40,334 nucleotides of DNA, taken from positions 1 through 40,334 of IMG/VR virus record IMGVR_UViG_3300038548_000189. One strand, given 5' to 3'. The DNA comes from a virus. The position numbers were made by a program, and so were the translations under genes. This document shows, piece by piece, positions 244-40,334 of the stretch (positions are counted from its first letter, which is position 1; each line of letters begins with the position of its first letter). The notes below the pieces were generated by a model, which saw only the letters and a list, made by a program, of their open reading frames with translations, was not told the origin of the DNA and did no database searches.

Positions 244-308
244 CAGCCGCTACTGCTTCATCAGTGTCAATTGTTACTGCGTCTAATGAACTGACAGAGT
301 AGTTATGA

Positions 309-767
309 AGGGGTGCTAAAGCAGCGAGCCACTAGAATCTGGATATCCCGCGCTTGACTACTTTAGCAAGATGAAGCCCTCACTCGATCCCAGGTAGGCT
401 TATCTCGTTACCACCACATAATTACTCTGGGTAGACGGTAATCTGTATTCGGAATGACACCAAGTAGCAGGCTGAGAACCACTTTTAATCCGGCTTTTCC
501 CCATCGCAAGTACTCCTTCTCAGAGAGTAATGGTTGAGGTGTCACTTCAAATACAGACTACAGGAAGGCTTAAAGGAGGGATTGTGTCTTGGGGGAATTT
601 CACCCCTGCATGCCGGTTAATGCTGTTTACCGGGAGCCTAGAATCTACCAGTCAGACACAAAAAAGGCCAATAAATACAGACCCTAGAGATTGGGGCGAG
701 ATTAGAGAACTTGGAAGTTTACCTTGCTCTCTAAAATCTGTACTTATTGACCCTTTCTCTAATCTCG
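309..767 (-). ncRNA. Candidate large structured RNA
   Basis: No convincing gene lies here, yet the block is packed with long complementary arms (plus-strand coordinates): 697-709/755-767 (13 bp, perfect); 676-690/728-742 (15 positions); 582-589/654-661 (8 bp); 613-617/629-633 (5 bp); 439-461/538-560 (23 positions); 472-478/517-523 (7 bp); 314-321/361-368 (8 bp). Six oppositions that would be C-A on the plus strand (441-558, 450-549, 454-545, 682-736, 683-735, 684-734) become G-U pairs on the minus strand. Only one (452-547) goes the other way, so the minus strand is the likely RNA. Size and complexity recall phage 'ornate' RNAs such as GOLLD and ROOL, but I cannot match it to either. Exact ends are unknown. 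Confidence 0.7.
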
Positions 768-853
768 TTTAACGACGCACTTCCACACACGTCTACAATT
801 TGTTATCCCGATATTTCATCAAGCGTCGGAACAAGCGCCAGAACCATAATACT

Positions 854-5493: not shown

Positions 5494-5668
5494 AATCAGT
5501 GAGCAGACTTTAGAGAAGGCTCGCGAGTATGTAAAACTCCGCGATGGCATGAATGATATGTCTGTGGATGAGTTTAGAGAGTTTCAGCTTCTTGCCTGTT
5601 ATATCGCAACCGGTCTCGTTTTGGATGTTGAGCTAACCGAGAAAGCAATTAAAAGGAGTGGCAAGTAA
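5483..5668 (+). CDS. Hypothetical protein
   Basis: 61 residues from ATG 5483, with GGAGAATAACA before it. All-helical in appearance (ISEQTLEKAREYVKLRDG, DEFREFQLLACYIATGLVLDVE). Unrecognised. Starts inside the SPOUT gene and abuts the ERF gene. Confidence 0.65.
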   Translation: MLVEISEQTLEKAREYVKLRDGMNDMSVDEFREFQLLACYIATGLVLDVELTEKAIKRSGK

Positions 5669-6456
5669 TGACTGACGCACTAAACATATACCAGCGTATT
5701 AACGCAGTAATGCAGGACGTTGAATACGTCAAAAAGGATGGATCAATCAATGGGGGTGGCGCGAACTATAAAGCCGTTACCCACGATCAAGTAACATCAG
5801 TCGTCAGAAAATCAATGGTTAAGCATGGCATTGTTATCGAAGTTCAGCAGTTAAAATCTGAAATGCTTATTAAGCGCAACGTAGAGGCAGGCGTGAAAAT
5901 GCACCTTTACTCTGGCGACTACGCTGTGAGCTTCATTAACATCGATGACGGCAAGGATAGATTGACAGCCACTATCAACGCACACGCTAACGATAACGGC
6001 GACAAGGCACCAGGAAAGGCTGCTAGCTACGCTGTTAAGTATGCCATGCTGAAGACCTTCACGCTGGAGACTGGCGAAAACGATGAATCAAGAAGCTTTG
6101 AAGAACCCGACTTCACCGATCATCAAAAATCGCAGTTTGATGAAGTTCTTGAAAGTAAAAACGGCTTGAACTTTATCGTTTTCTCTAAGGCTGTAGGCCC
6201 TGAAGTAATGATGGGGCTAAATAACAGCTTTGAGAAAGGGACCATCTCACAGGGCAAAGCGCTTTGTAAGAAATTAGAATTAGAGGGCTGGGATACCCTC
6301 AAGGATTACGCTCGACAGATTACAGAGCTAATCGATAACCACGACCCATCTGTAACAGAATTAGTTGATGAGCTGTCAGGAGATGAAAAAAGGCTGTTAA
6401 TCGGCCTGCTTGATGAGCACCAGATAGCCCACTTGAAAAAGCTTAAGGAGTTATAA
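5668..6456 (+). CDS. erf: ERF-family single-strand annealing recombinase
   Basis: 262 residues. Residues 1-145 match the ERF core: an N-terminal helix (NIYQRINAVMQDVEYVKKDG), YKAVTHDQVTSVVRKSMVKHGIVI, and the conserved end APGKAASYAVKYAMLKTFTLETGENDE. ERF proteins such as that of P22 form rings that anneal complementary single strands and circularise phage DNA. The C-terminal 110 residues are helical and acidic. With NinB, the Ref-like nuclease and RusA downstream it forms a full recombination set. Ribosome site AAGGAG. Confidence 0.9.
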   Translation: MTDALNIYQRINAVMQDVEYVKKDGSINGGGANYKAVTHDQVTSVVRKSMVKHGIVIEVQQLKSEMLIKRNVEAGVKMHLYSGDYAVSFINIDDGKDRLTATINAHANDNGDKAPGKAASYAVKYAMLKTFTLETGENDESRSFEEPDFTDHQKSQFDEVLESKNGLNFIVFSKAVGPEVMMGLNNSFEKGTISQGKALCKKLELEGWDTLKDYARQITELIDNHDPSVTELVDELSGDEKRLLIGLLDEHQIAHLKKLKEL

Positions 6457-7960: not shown

Positions 7961-8275
7961 ATGTCTAAGCGAAGTATAACCAAAAAAGACAAAGAACGCG
8001 CAGATAAACTTAGGGAACTAGGTTGTATTGTCTGCCTGCTTGAGAATGGCTTATTTACCCCTCCCGCTATCCATCACATCGATGGGCAGACTAAAAAGAA
8101 TTGCCACAAATTAACAATCCCTCTCTGTCCTAATCACCATCAAATTAAAGATAACTTTTCCCAGAAGCGATGGATTAGCCGCCACGCTGACGGTCGCGCT
8201 GCATTTGAGGAAAAGTATGGCACAGAGCAGGAATTACTTGAAGAAACAAATAGGCTGATCAATGCAGATTCTTAA
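7961..8275 (+). CDS. Ref-like HNH nuclease
   Basis: 104 residues from ATG 7961, with GGGAGG nine bases upstream. HNH-type core: Cys-x2-Cys in CIVCLLENG, then TPPAIHHIDGQTKKNCHKLTIPLCPNHHQ. This spacing matches phage P1 Ref, a RecA-dependent endonuclease that cuts at displacement loops, and its many small phage relatives. Sits between ninB and rusA, consistent with a recombination role. It has its own promoter and structured leader. Confidence 0.75.
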   Translation: MSKRSITKKDKERADKLRELGCIVCLLENGLFTPPAIHHIDGQTKKNCHKLTIPLCPNHHQIKDNFSQKRWISRHADGRAAFEEKYGTEQELLEETNRLINADS

Positions 8276-8594
8276 CATCAAGCCGCTATCAGTCAACGAG
8301 GCATGGAAAGGCCGGAGATTTAAGACCGATAAATATAAGCGCTATGAATTTGAGGTTTGTGCAAAGTTACCGCGCATTAAATTACCAGAAGGATTTCTAT
8401 CAGTTTCCCTGGAGTTTGGTTTTAGCAATCATGCCAGTGACATAGATAATCCGGTTAAATTGTTTATTGACTGCATGCAAAAGAAATACGGATTTAATGA
8501 TCGAATGATTAAAGAGCTTCATGTAAAGGCAATCGACTGTAAGAAGGGCGAAGAATATATTAAATTTTCAATTGAGGAATTTAACCATGATTAA
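8262..8594 (+). CDS. rusA: RusA-family Holliday junction resolvase
   Basis: 110 residues, near the 120 of E. coli RusA. The conserved acidic core SDIDNPVKLFIDCMQKKYGFNDRMI (58-82) holds the metal-binding Asp residues; LNIKPLSVNEAWKGRRFKT is the usual N-terminus. RusA dimers resolve four-way junctions, needed to clear branches before packaging. It overlaps the Ref-like gene by 14 bases. Confidence 0.88.
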   Translation: MQILNIKPLSVNEAWKGRRFKTDKYKRYEFEVCAKLPRIKLPEGFLSVSLEFGFSNHASDIDNPVKLFIDCMQKKYGFNDRMIKELHVKAIDCKKGEEYIKFSIEEFNHD

Positions 8595-8871
8595 TCGAAA
8601 GATAAAGATTGAAGGTATAGACGCAACATTTATCAAGCTTGGCGAGGCTGAAGGCAAAGTTGATCGGCCCACTGTTGATTACATATTCAAGACAGGGAAA
8701 CTGACTCGCCATGTATATCATTACATTAAGAATGGCGTCCTGGTTTTATTTTGCAGCGTTATAGTTGCCAAGGCAGAGCTTGATTGGTTAGTGCGGTTTT
8801 TAAAGCAGAAGGTTAAGGATCAGAAGAAAAAGCAGCTCTTTGAAATCACGGTGTTTGAATTTAATCACTGA
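8587..8871 (+). CDS. Hypothetical protein
   Basis: 94 residues from ATG 8587, supported by GAGGA eight bases upstream. Basic, with a hydrophobic stretch (GVLVLFCSVIVAKAELDWLV) too charged to be a clear membrane segment, and a lysine-rich C-terminus. Overlaps rusA by eight bases. Confidence 0.65.
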   Translation: MINRKIKIEGIDATFIKLGEAEGKVDRPTVDYIFKTGKLTRHVYHYIKNGVLVLFCSVIVAKAELDWLVRFLKQKVKDQKKKQLFEITVFEFNH

Positions 8872-10186: not shown

Positions 10187-10552
10187 ATGAGAGAGATTAA
10201 ATTTAGGGCTTGGAACGGTAAGGCGATGGAGCATGGTGGCTTTTCTATTAGCCCGTCAAACGGGAGGATCATAGACTCATGTATTATATCAAAAGTTAAG
10301 GATGATTCGCCGCTCATGCAATACACCGGATTAAAAGATAAGAATGGTGTGGAGATATATGAGGGGGATATATTGCGAGGGGAATACGTAGTACCCGAAG
10401 AACATTTAATATTATTTATGAGTGTTGAGTTCATTACGGGATGCTTTTGTATCAGGGATAAGTTTGGGTCAACCAATCCCCTCCATGAAGATAACGAAAC
10501 CACCGAAGTAATCGGCAACATCTACGAAAACCCAGAACTACTGGAGAAATAA
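10187..10552 (+). CDS. YopX family protein
   Basis: 121 residues. REIKFRAWNGKAMEH at the N-terminus and LMQYTGLKDKNGVEIYEGDIL (44-64) with VIGNIYENPELL near the end are the YopX signature. YopX proteins are widespread in phages and prophages with no settled function. Ribosome site AGGGGG. Confidence 0.88.
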   Translation: MREIKFRAWNGKAMEHGGFSISPSNGRIIDSCIISKVKDDSPLMQYTGLKDKNGVEIYEGDILRGEYVVPEEHLILFMSVEFITGCFCIRDKFGSTNPLHEDNETTEVIGNIYENPELLEK

Positions 10553-10555
10553 ACC

Positions 10556-10564
10556 TGCTATAAT
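10556..10564 (+). promoter_or_regulatory. Extended -10 promoter of homing-type gene 1
   Basis: TGCTATAAT, a perfect -10 in extended form, with no -35 match. Expected start near 10571, the first base of the RNA element that follows. The same arrangement precedes the second homing-type gene (15653-15661). Confidence 0.6.
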
Positions 10565-10570
10565 GATCAA

Positions 10571-10614
10571 GCGGCTAGGGTTGCAACCCGAACAACAGTT
10601 AGTCACTGTGCCGC
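10571..10614 (+). ncRNA. Three-way-junction leader RNA, copy 1
   Basis: P1 GCGGC (10571-10575)/GCCGC (10610-10614); TA; P2 GGG (10578-10580)/CCC (10587-10589); GAA (10590-10592); P3 CAGT (10596-10599)/ACTG (10605-10608) with loop TAGTC. Copy 2 at 15667-15716 keeps P1, the TA and GAA linkers and the layout, while P2 and P3 change on both sides of the pairing. Confidence 0.6.
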
Positions 10615-10649
10615 CTACGCTTCGACTACCACTGACTAAGGTTTCTATT

Positions 10650-11132
10650 ATGATTACTCAAAAAAGACTTAAAGAATTGCTATCATATAATCCTGCCACT
10701 GGAATATTTACTCGACTCAATCTGCGCGGTAACTGGACCAATGCAGGGGGCTATGATAGGCAGGGATACAGGAGAATCAATATAGACGGGGATTATTATT
10801 TCTGTCATAGGCTGGCCTTTCTTTATATGGAGGGAGATTTTCCAAAGGACGCAACAGACCACATAAATCATATTAGAGACGACAATAGGTGGTCAAACCT
10901 TCGATGCGCCGATGCCGCTCTTAATTCCAGAAACAACTCAATACGAAAAGACAATACATCTGGCGTGGTTGGTGTAACGTGGCATAAGGGCGATAAAAAA
11001 TGGCAGGCTCAAATATCATCCGGTCTTAAAAATATCTATTTAGGAAGTTTTGACAGCATAGGAACTGCGAAAAAAGTAAGGGAAGAAGCCAGCAAAAACT
11101 ACAACTACCATCCAAATCATGGGAGAGCGTAA
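10650..11132 (+). CDS. HNH-AP2 homing-type endonuclease 1
   Basis: 160 residues from ATG 10650. Residues 35-100 form an HNH_3 domain (FCHRLAFLYM, DHINHIRDDNRWSNLR: His53, Asp70-His71, Asn79). Residues 104-145 form an AP2-type DNA-binding domain (SGVVGVTWHKGDKKWQAQI, LGSF). Such genes are selfish cargo that cut DNA lacking them. It sits between the YopX and endolysin genes, carries its own promoter and leader RNA, and its 3' end supplies the endolysin ribosome site (GGGAGAG). The longer frame from 10563 would run through the leader RNA and is not used. Confidence 0.85.
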   Translation: MITQKRLKELLSYNPATGIFTRLNLRGNWTNAGGYDRQGYRRINIDGDYYFCHRLAFLYMEGDFPKDATDHINHIRDDNRWSNLRCADAALNSRNNSIRKDNTSGVVGVTWHKGDKKWQAQISSGLKNIYLGSFDSIGTAKKVREEASKNYNYHPNHGRA

Positions 11133-13627: not shown

Positions 13628-15637
13628 CTCACTCCATACATCAGAACCACCAAATACCCACGTTACCGCTTCATTCTGTGGGATGGTGACAGTTGCGGCG
13701 CCTTTGTTATAAATCCCGCTAGTTGGGTTGTGGAGTATATCCATAGAAAAAACACTGTTGTTGAGTATCGTTAATCTATGCCCTTTTGCGAAGTCTTTAG
13801 CGCTCGCCACTGGAGGCGCGAACTCATTAACCTCTACACCCCCGGCAGTTGGAGCAGGTCGGACAAAGCTATAGCCATCACCCGCCTGGTTAGCAGGGAT
13901 GGTGAGCGTGTTGCCTGTTCCGGTTAGTGCTGGCTCTGAAACACCGTTGTTGGGACTTCCCACTCCAAATACTGTAGCAATCCTCGACCCCAGGACATTC
14001 ACATCACCGGTATTATTATAGGTAATGCCACCTATTTTCGCGGTTGTGAAGTTTAATATAATGCTCAAGTCATCAATACGAGACTTACTAGTGTTCGTAC
14101 CAATAAAACAGGATGCGTCCATAGTGCCCTGCGTGGCTGAGGCTTCGTAATTAATAAACAGGGATTCAATATTTAAGTCGTCTGTATCGCCGTTACCTTC
14201 AACACGCAATCCGAATACCTGGGTGCCCTCAGTAACCACGCTGCCAATATTTACGTTGAATATAGGCGCTATGCTGCTAGAGCCTGTGTCAATGCCCAAA
14301 TCTTTTGATTGTGAGTTTTTGCTCAAGATAGTATCGATGCTTATATTTCGTAGCTCAACACCACTTGCACCACACTGGAGTAAGACGTTCTCCTCGGCCC
14401 CATCTGATTTAACATGGCCTATTTGTACATCTCGAAGGCCAGCATCACTACTCTGAATATGGAAGCCGCGCTTCTGAGCTGCATTACAATCACAAATAAC
14501 ACGCTGAATAGATACATCACGGCATATACCAAAGGCTATATCCGATTTCAGCAATACGCCAGACTCATCATTTTCTATTGTGTTAATCAATCCAAGGTTA
14601 ACGTTTTGACATTTGCTCACAAAGCCGAAGTTGCCAAAAACCCCCAAAAGGTTATCCCCTGTGTGCTTTTGAAAGCTTTGGAATAATAACGCATGGCGCG
14701 GAACACTTGCTGTCTTACATAAGCCGACTATATTCTCAGTGTGTAAGTGACCGCCGGCGTTCAGCGTTGTAGCCGATACACGCAAGGCATCAGCCTCCGC
14801 CGCCGCCGAGGCAGAGCCAACATCTACGCCGAAGTCTCTAAAATCTGCGTTATCACATGTGAAAGGAAATGAGCCATCAATAATTGATCCGTTCTCTAAT
14901 GCGGTTTTGCCACTATTAACTTGCGGCATTGAATTTCCATACACCCTTACATCTGTTTCAGCTATTACCGTCCCATCATAAAAGTAACGCTTATCCTGCA
15001 GTCTAACCGGTGAGCCTGCCGCGAATACTATAGCCGCTCTAATAGCGATGCTGTCTCCGGCCCTTGTTCCATCAGTCCCGAATTGATCAAGGTTAATGAC
15101 GCCTTTAGGGAATAAGCCTTTAGCCTGTAATCCGTTATCTAAATTAATAAATGATCCGTTGTCAGCTGTACCTGTTCCGCCTGCTACAATTTCATACTGA
15201 TTATCACCGTCATCACCGTTTGACTGATGCCCCACAGTATCAACAAAGTCACCAATAACCAGGGAGGTATTAGCAACCACCGCAGCGACTAAAACACCGC
15301 CGACCTGATTGGGTAATATTTGGAGAAAATCAACATCATCGGCTAGTTGAATAGCGTTGCTGGTATCGTTGGCGTCTGCCTCTGCTGCTGTGGGGAATAT
15401 ATAAGCATCGTAAGCCTCATCCACATAAGGGATAAACGTCACATTACCGGCTGTCTTAATCAGTCCCAAAGGAGGCGTTGGGCCCGCTGAAATCTCAGCC
15501 TTGGCTACAGTAGGAGTGCCTGTTTTATTGGTCGCCATCACAATGGGCGTAGTCGTGCCCTGCTCATAAAGCTTAAGCCAGTAGTTTGGATAATCTTCCA
15601 TGAAGTCCGATATAAACTGAATTGGTGCAAGGGCCAT
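13622..15637 (-). CDS. Tailspike protein
   Basis: 671 residues. Residues 1-105 (QFISDFMEDYPNYWLKLYEQGTTTPIVMATNK, GNVTFIPYVDEAYDAYIFPT) resemble the P22-type particle-binding head. A linker leads to GVINLDQFGTDGTRAGDSIAIRAAI (about 180-205), the usual entry into a right-handed beta-helix, which fills most of the rest with repeating short strands. The C-terminus is a small beta domain ending TWVFGGSDVWSES. Such spikes bind and often cleave surface polysaccharide. The stop overlaps the opposing lipoprotein gene by six bases and no terminator separates them. Confidence 0.85.
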   Translation of the reverse strand: MALAPIQFISDFMEDYPNYWLKLYEQGTTTPIVMATNKTGTPTVAKAEISAGPTPPLGLIKTAGNVTFIPYVDEAYDAYIFPTAAEADANDTSNAIQLADDVDFLQILPNQVGGVLVAAVVANTSLVIGDFVDTVGHQSNGDDGDNQYEIVAGGTGTADNGSFINLDNGLQAKGLFPKGVINLDQFGTDGTRAGDSIAIRAAIVFAAGSPVRLQDKRYFYDGTVIAETDVRVYGNSMPQVNSGKTALENGSIIDGSFPFTCDNADFRDFGVDVGSASAAAEADALRVSATTLNAGGHLHTENIVGLCKTASVPRHALLFQSFQKHTGDNLLGVFGNFGFVSKCQNVNLGLINTIENDESGVLLKSDIAFGICRDVSIQRVICDCNAAQKRGFHIQSSDAGLRDVQIGHVKSDGAEENVLLQCGASGVELRNISIDTILSKNSQSKDLGIDTGSSSIAPIFNVNIGSVVTEGTQVFGLRVEGNGDTDDLNIESLFINYEASATQGTMDASCFIGTNTSKSRIDDLSIILNFTTAKIGGITYNNTGDVNVLGSRIATVFGVGSPNNGVSEPALTGTGNTLTIPANQAGDGYSFVRPAPTAGGVEVNEFAPPVASAKDFAKGHRLTILNNSVFSMDILHNPTSGIYNKGAATVTIPQNEAVTWVFGGSDVWSES

Positions 15638-21242: not shown

Positions 21243-22999
21243 TAGGCAGCACTCACATCAACAGTTAAGGCGTCTGTTTCAAAATTATTCCCCGCCGACA
21301 TATTTCTAACATGTGTAGTGAACTTTTCATTAATTGTGGCACTTGACGGTATTCTTAAATTTACACTGTCACTTACATTCGCAAAAGAGCGGGGAATTGA
21401 GCCATTGACCTTAACAAATCCGTTGCCTGTATCATCATCACAAAATAAGCTAAATTGAAATAAATTAGCCGCCGCCCCGGATTTTTGGCCCGAAATACTC
21501 GCGTTATAAATCACTGACAGCGTAGATAATCCTGTGTGCTGCTGTTCGTTGTCCGCACTCCCTATAAAGCGCTCAATCTCCACACAATCCGTTGTTGACC
21601 CGGCCATTTTAACCCATCCAGACTCCCAACTTCCGGTAGCATCGTCAGCAACAAAGGCTCTGACAATATCAAAGGAAACACCGCCAACAACATTGGCCGC
21701 AGTAAATAGCCCGTTATAGGAGGTTGTACCAAAGATAGCGACTGGTGCACCACTGGCAGGCGTTGAAGCCGTAGAGACGGTTGTATCACCACCCCCTGCA
21801 TCAGCAAAGGCGGTAATCGTTCCGTCTGCTCCCTGAAAAGAAAGAGTGGTCGCCGTTCCCAGCGTATCAAACGTAAAGCAACCTAAAGTCGTTGAGTCTG
21901 CAACCTCATCGCTGACAGATAGGGAGGTTCCTACATTACTGAAAAACTTAAGAACTGGGTCTTTTTTAGTCGCATTCAATAAAGCGGTGGCACCAGCTAC
22001 GGCAATAAATGTAGTGGTCGTAATATCACCCACTAGACCAATATTTGTCGAACTGGGCGAATCGGTCGCGATACAGGCATTTCCCGATCCTGCTGACTGT
22101 AGATTAACATCATCGATTATTAAAGAATTGACCGTGCTCGCACCTTGAATATCAATGGCATGCCCATCACCGGATGCTGCGGTTACTGCGGTATTACCTG
22201 CAACCCTGGCCCCGGCAATACGTATAGCGCCTACTGTTGACCCTGTGAATTCTATCCCTTTAGCACCTGACGAACTAACCTGTCCATCTGTAATACCGTA
22301 TCCCTGTATAGCTTGATTGCACTTAATACCGATACCTACCGAAGAAATTAAAGGTAATTCTAAAATTAACGACCCGGTCATAGGGCCTTGAATATCAAGA
22401 CCTATGCCAGTTACGCCACTAGGATTGAAAGTCTTCATAACGGTTCGAGGATTGGTTCCTGTCATCACACAGCCGTTTGTAACCCCTGAAGTAAATGTCC
22501 AGTTATCTAATCCAAAGCCGCCCGCACCATCAAGCTCTAATCCGTTACCGGCCGCTGATGTGAATAAATTTTGCGTGAATAGAACCGAGTTAGGCGCTGC
22601 TCTAACCGCCGCACCCGTTCCTGTGTTGTTTATTTTAAATCCACCCATGCCAAAAAGAGAGGATGAACCCGCACCACTTGCCGCCGTTACTGTGGCTACA
22701 CTAGAATTTGTAGTAAGGCTGGATAAAGTGGAGGTTGTGCCAATAAGCACGGTGCCAGCCGGGATGATCAGTGTATCTGTGATTAAATCAACAACGCCCA
22801 TGACATAAGCGCCGAGATTCAAGGTAATTACTGAACCTACTTGAGTGCTATTGGCAATCAAGGTAGCCTTGTCAGGTATCGGCGCGGCAGAATTGTATAG
22901 CTCATTAGTATTATCATTGATCTTGTCGAAAGCCGAGCGTAATTCGTCGCCGGTTCCGTCGTCATCAGCCAAGCCTATGTTTACGAGCTGTTTAGTCAC
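21242..22999 (-). CDS. Tail fibre / beta-helical virion protein
   Basis: 585 residues from GTG 22999, chosen because it overlaps the previous stop (TAGTG) and has GGAG eight bases upstream; the ATG at 23023 lies inside the previous gene. Near the N-terminus GLADDDGTGDELRSAFDKINDNTNELY is the trimer-forming motif seen at the start of many phage fibres. The rest is low-charge repeats of Gly, Thr, Ser and Asn strands, consistent with a beta-helix. Receptor contact is inferred. Confidence 0.75.
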   Translation of the reverse strand: MTKQLVNIGLADDDGTGDELRSAFDKINDNTNELYNSAAPIPDKATLIANSTQVGSVITLNLGAYVMGVVDLITDTLIIPAGTVLIGTTSTLSSLTTNSSVATVTAASGAGSSSLFGMGGFKINNTGTGAAVRAAPNSVLFTQNLFTSAAGNGLELDGAGGFGLDNWTFTSGVTNGCVMTGTNPRTVMKTFNPSGVTGIGLDIQGPMTGSLILELPLISSVGIGIKCNQAIQGYGITDGQVSSSGAKGIEFTGSTVGAIRIAGARVAGNTAVTAASGDGHAIDIQGASTVNSLIIDDVNLQSAGSGNACIATDSPSSTNIGLVGDITTTTFIAVAGATALLNATKKDPVLKFFSNVGTSLSVSDEVADSTTLGCFTFDTLGTATTLSFQGADGTITAFADAGGGDTTVSTASTPASGAPVAIFGTTSYNGLFTAANVVGGVSFDIVRAFVADDATGSWESGWVKMAGSTTDCVEIERFIGSADNEQQHTGLSTLSVIYNASISGQKSGAAANLFQFSLFCDDDTGNGFVKVNGSIPRSFANVSDSVNLRIPSSATINEKFTTHVRNMSAGNNFETDALTVDVSAA

Positions 23000-40102: not shown

Positions 40103-40334
40103 GTGGAAATGATAAGCATCAATGAGATTAAAGATTTGGCAAGCAAAGAATTAGTAGCCGCCCTACCAGCCAAGGAAGAGGGTGTGATTTTCGAAGTTGT
40201 ATCTGGTGAGTCACTTATTGGTGAGCCTACAGAAGATGAGCCCTTTGCGTCGATTGAGTACGATATTCTTTTTGAGTTCGGAAACTGTAAAAAGAAACAT
40301 GCAATGGTTATAGGTTGGAATGAAGACGATGGCG
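40103..40334 (+). CDS. Small acidic protein, 5' part of gene split by the window ends
   Basis: Starts at GTG 40103, with AAGGA eight bases upstream; ATG 40109 is the alternative. Reads VEMISINEIKDLASKELVAALPAKEEG onward and continues at position 1 after the shared 127 bases, to give 115 residues. First and only gene of its rightward unit before the structured RNA. No family recognised. Confidence 0.85.
   Translation, partial: MEMISINEIKDLASKELVAALPAKEEGVIFEVVSGESLIGEPTEDEPFASIEYDILFEFGNCKKKHAMVIGWNEDDG
40208..40334. repeat. Terminal direct repeat, copy 2 (assembly overlap)
   Basis: Same 127 bases as 1-127; see that entry. Removing one copy gives a 40,207-bp circle. Confidence 0.9.

Follow-up and report, generated by a model that had tools for sequence, protein, structure and literature searches.

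The gene-free block and its fold

The window, by which we mean the whole 40,334-base stretch of viral DNA analysed, carries a 127-base direct terminal repeat (positions 1–127 equal 40208–40334) that closes it into a unit of 40,207 bases and makes it probable that the record is a complete genome. Among its genes are those for portal, terminase, head-closure and tail proteins, and genes for a DNA methyltransferase and an ERF-type recombination protein lie at 1612–2538 on the minus and 5668–6456 on the plus strand. The block studied here is flanked on one side by a plus-strand open reading frame that runs across the ends of the record to a stop at 243, and on the other by a plus-strand gene at 951–1265, the gene next to the RNA being convergent with it. 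Its sole open reading frame of at least 60 amino acids (plus strand, 80 amino acids, 530–772) is without a Pfam match, which bears out the view of a first-pass annotation that the block holds no convincing gene. A minus-strand peptide frame inside the RNA (about 502 to 398, 34 amino acids), preceded by a Shine-Dalgarno-like AAGGAG, was considered and discarded as unsupported. No reverse transcriptase, as would be expected beside a retron RNA, was present among the flanking genes scanned.

The same annotation had proposed that 309–767 encodes a large, highly structured RNA on the minus strand, to be checked by folding both strands against shuffled sequence. The minus strand of this interval folds at −162.4 kcal/mol with a z-score of −5.64, none of 100 shuffles being equally stable, while the plus strand is unremarkable (z −0.21), so that the excess stability resides on the predicted strand. 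Z-scores by themselves are weak evidence here, since a relative, L077, reaches −6.6 in a coding stretch (14205–14535), and folding energy alone would therefore not settle the question of an RNA; that stretch, examined as a possible relative of the block, was rejected as its stable fold lies inside a 383-amino-acid reading frame. The long helices reported for the block were recovered when all 40 kb of the window were scanned strand-symmetrically: the top three inverted repeats (scores 20.5, 18 and 13) and a further one (11.5) all fall inside 295–767. The asymmetry in G–U pairing noticed earlier was also reproduced: the four strongest helices in the window hold 11 G–U pairs on the minus strand versus 2 on the plus strand, and over seven family members (see below) the count is 63 on the RNA strand versus 16 (p 9e-8).

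Wider folding adds the arms 796–790:437–431 and 429–410:314–295. The true element thus extends from about 796 to 295 on the minus strand, some 500 nucleotides, and may reach about 257 through a small hairpin (290–283:264–257); these boundaries are the outermost conserved helices, not transcript ends. The interval first proposed was right in location and strand and too short in extent. A nine-nucleotide motif, CTAGAATCT, to which attention had been drawn because it occurs twice, did not hold up: by our own estimate about 0.4 repeated 9-mers are expected by chance in 459 nucleotides, the repeat was not seen in the relatives, and it is probably a chance occurrence. The parts of the RNA are as follows, with L151 denoting the relative closest to the window.

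295 to 796, minus strand, read 796 to 295: whole structured RNA, delimited by the outermost conserved helices
790 to 796, minus strand: P1 5′ arm, GUAGACG, pairing with 437–431; L151 has GUAGGCG
431 to 437, minus strand: P1 3′ arm, CGUCUAC; CGCCUAC in L151, a compensatory change
774 to 793, minus strand: hairpin H1, GACG/CGUC, with the S1 5′ arm in its loop; two-sided changes in 4/4 pairs across the family
779 to 785, minus strand: S1 5′ arm, UGGAAGU, pseudoknot partner of 718–712
712 to 718, minus strand: S1 3′ arm, ACUUCCA; 5/7 pairs change on both sides
755 to 767, minus strand: S3 5′ arm, CGAGAUUAGAGAA, partner of 709–697
697 to 709, minus strand: S3 3′ arm, UUCUCUAAUCUCG; 6/8 pairs change on both sides
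729 to 753, minus strand: 5′ arm of the long hairpin P3, from fold and covariation
665 to 689, minus strand: P3 3′ arm, running directly into the U-tract
660 to 665, minus strand: U-tract UUUUUU behind P3, in all family members collected
583 to 660, minus strand: P4 slot, in which the stem UGUGUCU/AGACACA (660–654:589–583) closes three small hairpins
438 to 561, minus strand: P5 domain, helix 561–538:461–438, from fold and subfamily comparison
295 to 429, minus strand: P6 3′ domain, helix 429–410:314–295, inner stems 406–390:386–368 and 367–357:325–315
803 to 811, minus strand: weak −10-like GATAAC, near the place of TATAAT in the relatives

The S1 pseudoknot (785–779:718–712), which leads from the H1 loop into the interior of P3, is present in the window, and the 13-base-pair perfect repeat that makes up S3 (697–709/755–767) crosses P3, so that S3 and P3 are both impossible within one nested fold. 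Because both S1 and S3 cross P3, the 5′ core must be either pseudoknotted or switching between states. In the window the 13 base pairs of S3 and the full P3 probably cannot both form completely, there being almost no linker between them, whereas S1, with its longer linker, can be compatible with P3. The P1 5′ arm overlaps H1, and these two helices are therefore probably mutually exclusive. A kissing loop between 523–517 and 478–472 was dropped from the model, its 5′ partner being equally well read as a GAGA tetraloop.

Relatives in Vibrio phages and covariation

Rfam (15) gave no match to the block at curated or permissive thresholds, and none in the window to a group I or II intron or any other catalogued RNA. 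A blastn search with the block against phages and plasmids yielded nothing at E 0.01; relaxed to E 10, it returned a single 37-base match (E 0.6) in Vibrio phage NF, located in an unannotated gap of 610 bases (10262–10871). As a query, this NF gap gave matches in 33 phage records with E-values no higher than 2e-6, counting those that cover more than the promoter part. All are Vibrio phages, among them NF, phiV208, Seahorse, H2 and many Nahant isolates, and most of the matches lie in unannotated gaps or have tRNA genes inside. A pattern search of IMG/VR (U-tract, GUGUCU and AGACACAA) returned 25 contigs, 13 of which have the same upstream hairpin, and the family as collected comprises the 33 phage records and these 13 contigs; a pattern for a second subfamily retrieved only L151 and L152 again from IMG/VR.

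A 5′-core covariance model, derived from seven relatives with the window and L151 left out, matches the window at 794–653 on the minus strand, scoring 69.5 bits (E-value 4.8e-11 over 312 kb), its only match there, and matches L151 with 79 bits. Of the search that the first-pass annotation had suggested, Rfam thus drew a blank and the model of phage relatives found the window, showing the window RNA to be a distant member of the family. Its suggestion that the RNA might be a new class agrees with the absence of the family from Rfam. The helix in front of the U-tract recurs throughout: the 14 bases ahead of the U-tract in the window pair upstream at 13 of 14 positions (0/500 shuffles), 30 of 34 sequences pass the same test at ≤2/500 shuffles, and in nearly all members a stem based on GG/CC runs directly into 5–8 U. 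Elsewhere, the model gives a weak second match in L151 (6113–6224, just before a gene; E 0.01), which may be chance, and NF has a second copy of the RNA (NF 21723–22268, L164:724–1269; model match 21745–21872, E 6.6e-8).

Several other routes to relatives were abandoned. The protein encoded at 951–1265 is common in unrelated phages with no RNA beside it, the open reading frame across the record junction led to no RNA, and scanning for exact 16-mers taken from guessed loops turned up nothing but chance matches in coding sequence. In L069, a phage with a related terminase, a gene-free stretch adjoining an HNH gene (8135–8640; z −2.8 minus, −3.9 plus; no Rfam match) is unrelated to the window RNA in position and sequence. 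No member of the family turned up in 299 Pseudomonadota genomes, a thin sample scanned with strict filters, and two Cohaesibacter matches from the scan of genome contigs were judged chance. The RNA is also absent from terminase relatives of the window. Because the nearest contig by terminase (92%) is without it, the RNA is dispensable in this lineage and behaves as an accessory phage element.

Covariation across relatives, another of the checks proposed beforehand, came out clearly. In a MAFFT alignment of ten rows that was not fitted to the structure, with pairing read from NF, itself one of those rows, 24 of the 42 pairs in H1, S1, S3 and P3 show two-sided changes versus 10.7 expected, a value reached in none of 500 shuffles, and the covariation score falls from 0.41 to 0.18 or less when the partners are shifted by one column. 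For P3 and H1 in 20 distinct model-aligned sequences, 141 two-sided cells were counted versus 38 in shuffles, in an alignment that leans to the model. The P4 closing stem was built into the IMG/VR search pattern and so carries no weight in the IMG/VR members; its support comes from NF, V208, 1.122.A and the second copy in NF (GUAUCUG with CAGAUAC). P1, P5 and P6 are kept in the window's subfamily despite different sequences. For P5, 42/42 pairs are kept in the window, L151 and L155 as against 51% with swapped partners, and for P6 the arms pair with their own partner at 31/33 as against 27% with swapped ones; the arms were read by hand and partly by eye, so that the percentages flatter the structure and the swapped-partner values serve as the control, and support for the 3′ domain comes from three to four sequences only.

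Folding on the minus strand alone, the covariance model and covariation together support the large structured minus-strand RNA first proposed, and we have very little doubt that 796–295 encodes a member of a conserved RNA family on that strand.

The P4 slot, tRNAs and the promoter

The content of the P4 slot varies across the family between a closed stem domain, a tRNA-like domain and two to three tRNA genes. Directly after the U-tract, Seahorse carries tRNA-Trp, Arg and Gly, H2 tRNA-Met and Arg, and 1.116.O and 1.085.O tRNA-Trp and Arg; with L143 and L148, these are the members in which tRNA genes were found inside the block. NF, phiV208 and L143 have a tRNA-like domain in the slot with an adjoining T-arm-like GGUUCGAUUCC, and tRNA-like or T-arm-like stems recur in NF, V208, L143, L151 and L152. 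In the window the slot consists of the closing stem and three arms; ARAGORN and Rfam call no tRNA in the window or at the corresponding place in NF, for which the published genome reports no tRNAs (PMC10196503). Outside the family, a 1.3-kb gene-free stretch of Xanthomonas phage Kintu (41901–43207; L171:900–2206) holds tRNA-Trp, Gly and Arg and has a stable predicted fold. It has a 48-base module in common (94%) with the P6 interior of L151, the P3 core being absent, and may possibly be another large tRNA-bearing RNA.

Most relatives have a TATAAT-like box 11–19 nucleotides before S1 together with a −35 box, as in a sigma-70 promoter. At the 5′ core of the window nothing passes a sigma-70 scan, GATAAC included; a host with other promoters is possible. 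The genes downstream differ between phages. From the promoter in most relatives and the differing downstream genes we infer that the RNA would be transcribed as its own unit.

A proposed architectural RNA and its rivals

The RNA can be compared with GOLLD and ROOL, which form RNA cages and occur near tRNA islands, GOLLD sometimes holding tRNAs in its linkers (PMC12286853). Like GOLLD, the family is phage-encoded, several hundred nucleotides long, of complex structure and sometimes with tRNAs inside (PMC12286853), but the arrangement is reversed: GOLLD has a conserved 3′ domain and a variable 5′ part (PMC12286853), whereas the present family keeps its 5′ part constant and varies in its 3′ part, as between 1.131.O, NF and L151. 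With ROOL it has in common a phage or prophage setting near tRNA islands and a complex pseudoknotted structure (PMC12286853), and it differs in having no bacterial genomic copy in the Pseudomonadota sample described above. The Rfam models of GOLLD and ROOL match neither the window nor 13 Vibrio phage loci, permissive E-values included. The first-pass annotation, which had named both RNAs and could match neither, therefore stands on this point, with phage setting and tRNA association alike and the models not matching. The P4 slot, with its closing stem of 7–8 base pairs and small arms, also resembles tRNA and tmRNA, but neither is called in the window by ARAGORN or Rfam. The open papers on large phage RNAs retrieved by our searches deal only with GOLLD, ROOL and OLE and do not describe the family, which may have been described elsewhere.

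Our best explanation, modelled on proposals for GOLLD and ROOL, is that the pseudoknotted 5′ core (H1, S1, S3, P3 and the U-tract) would be a rigid unit held constant, and that the peripheral slot would, during infection, display or carry tRNAs or stems derived from them. This architectural mechanism, which we arrive at by analogy, is plausible though short of probable; the statement as a whole, joining a conserved RNA, a transcript of its own and the mechanism, we consider somewhat more likely true than false. Counting against it are the weak promoter in the window, the lack of a tRNA there and the terminator-like P3 with its U-tract, and the 5′ core might instead be a separate short RNA in which P3 and the U-tract resemble an intrinsic terminator.

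That last feature also suggests an attenuator, in which P3 and the U-tract would stop most transcription after about 135 nucleotides and S1 and S3 would choose between stopping and reading on into the tRNAs and the 3′ part, making the block a cis-regulator. The GG/CC-based stem before the U-tract in nearly every member, the ability of S1 and S3, which cross P3, to compete with it and the tRNAs just behind the U-tract in several phages would all fit. P1, however, joins the 5′ end to a site about 350 nucleotides downstream with a compensatory change, P5 and P6 beyond the U-tract covary as well, and the downstream genes are not conserved, the next gene in the window being convergent; we consider this reading unlikely. 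As a tRNA decoy, the RNA would use its tRNA-like domains to divert tRNA-cutting defence nucleases of the host, or enzymes that modify or process tRNAs, during infection. Such a role would explain why tRNA-like or T-arm-like stems recur and real tRNAs occupy the same slot, but it would have no need of the conserved 5′ core, and many members, the window included, have no recognisable tRNA in the slot, so that we rate it as rather improbable. Several members carry genes for tRNA-Trp, Arg, Gly and Met, which could also point to a stable polycistronic precursor, the RNA being mainly leader and trailer for phage tRNAs and a remnant where these were lost; a remnant would decay, whereas the structure is conserved in tRNA-free members, which makes this very unlikely. 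A DNA-level element with no RNA role (an origin, a packaging site or decaying inverted repeats) would account for the strong inverted repeats and for their place in a block that lies between gene modules and has no genes, but the one-strand G–U bias, the 5′ promoters of the relatives and the conserved pseudoknots bring it close to refutation.

Returning to the architectural reading, we tentatively suggest, as a proposal still more doubtful than the mechanism itself, that the family may be a third class of large architectural phage RNA beside GOLLD and ROOL, with a core that would capture tRNAs in an exchangeable slot, possibly with RNA-only assembly, in several phage lineages. The large structured RNAs of phages are a small group, in which no function is known yet for GOLLD or ROOL. 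The present family, absent from Rfam and supported by covariation, occurs in dozens of sequenced Vibrio phages. With members that come from isolates, expression, structure, assembly and deletion phenotypes are directly testable, and the question of why tRNAs recur at one place in an RNA is opened to direct tests.
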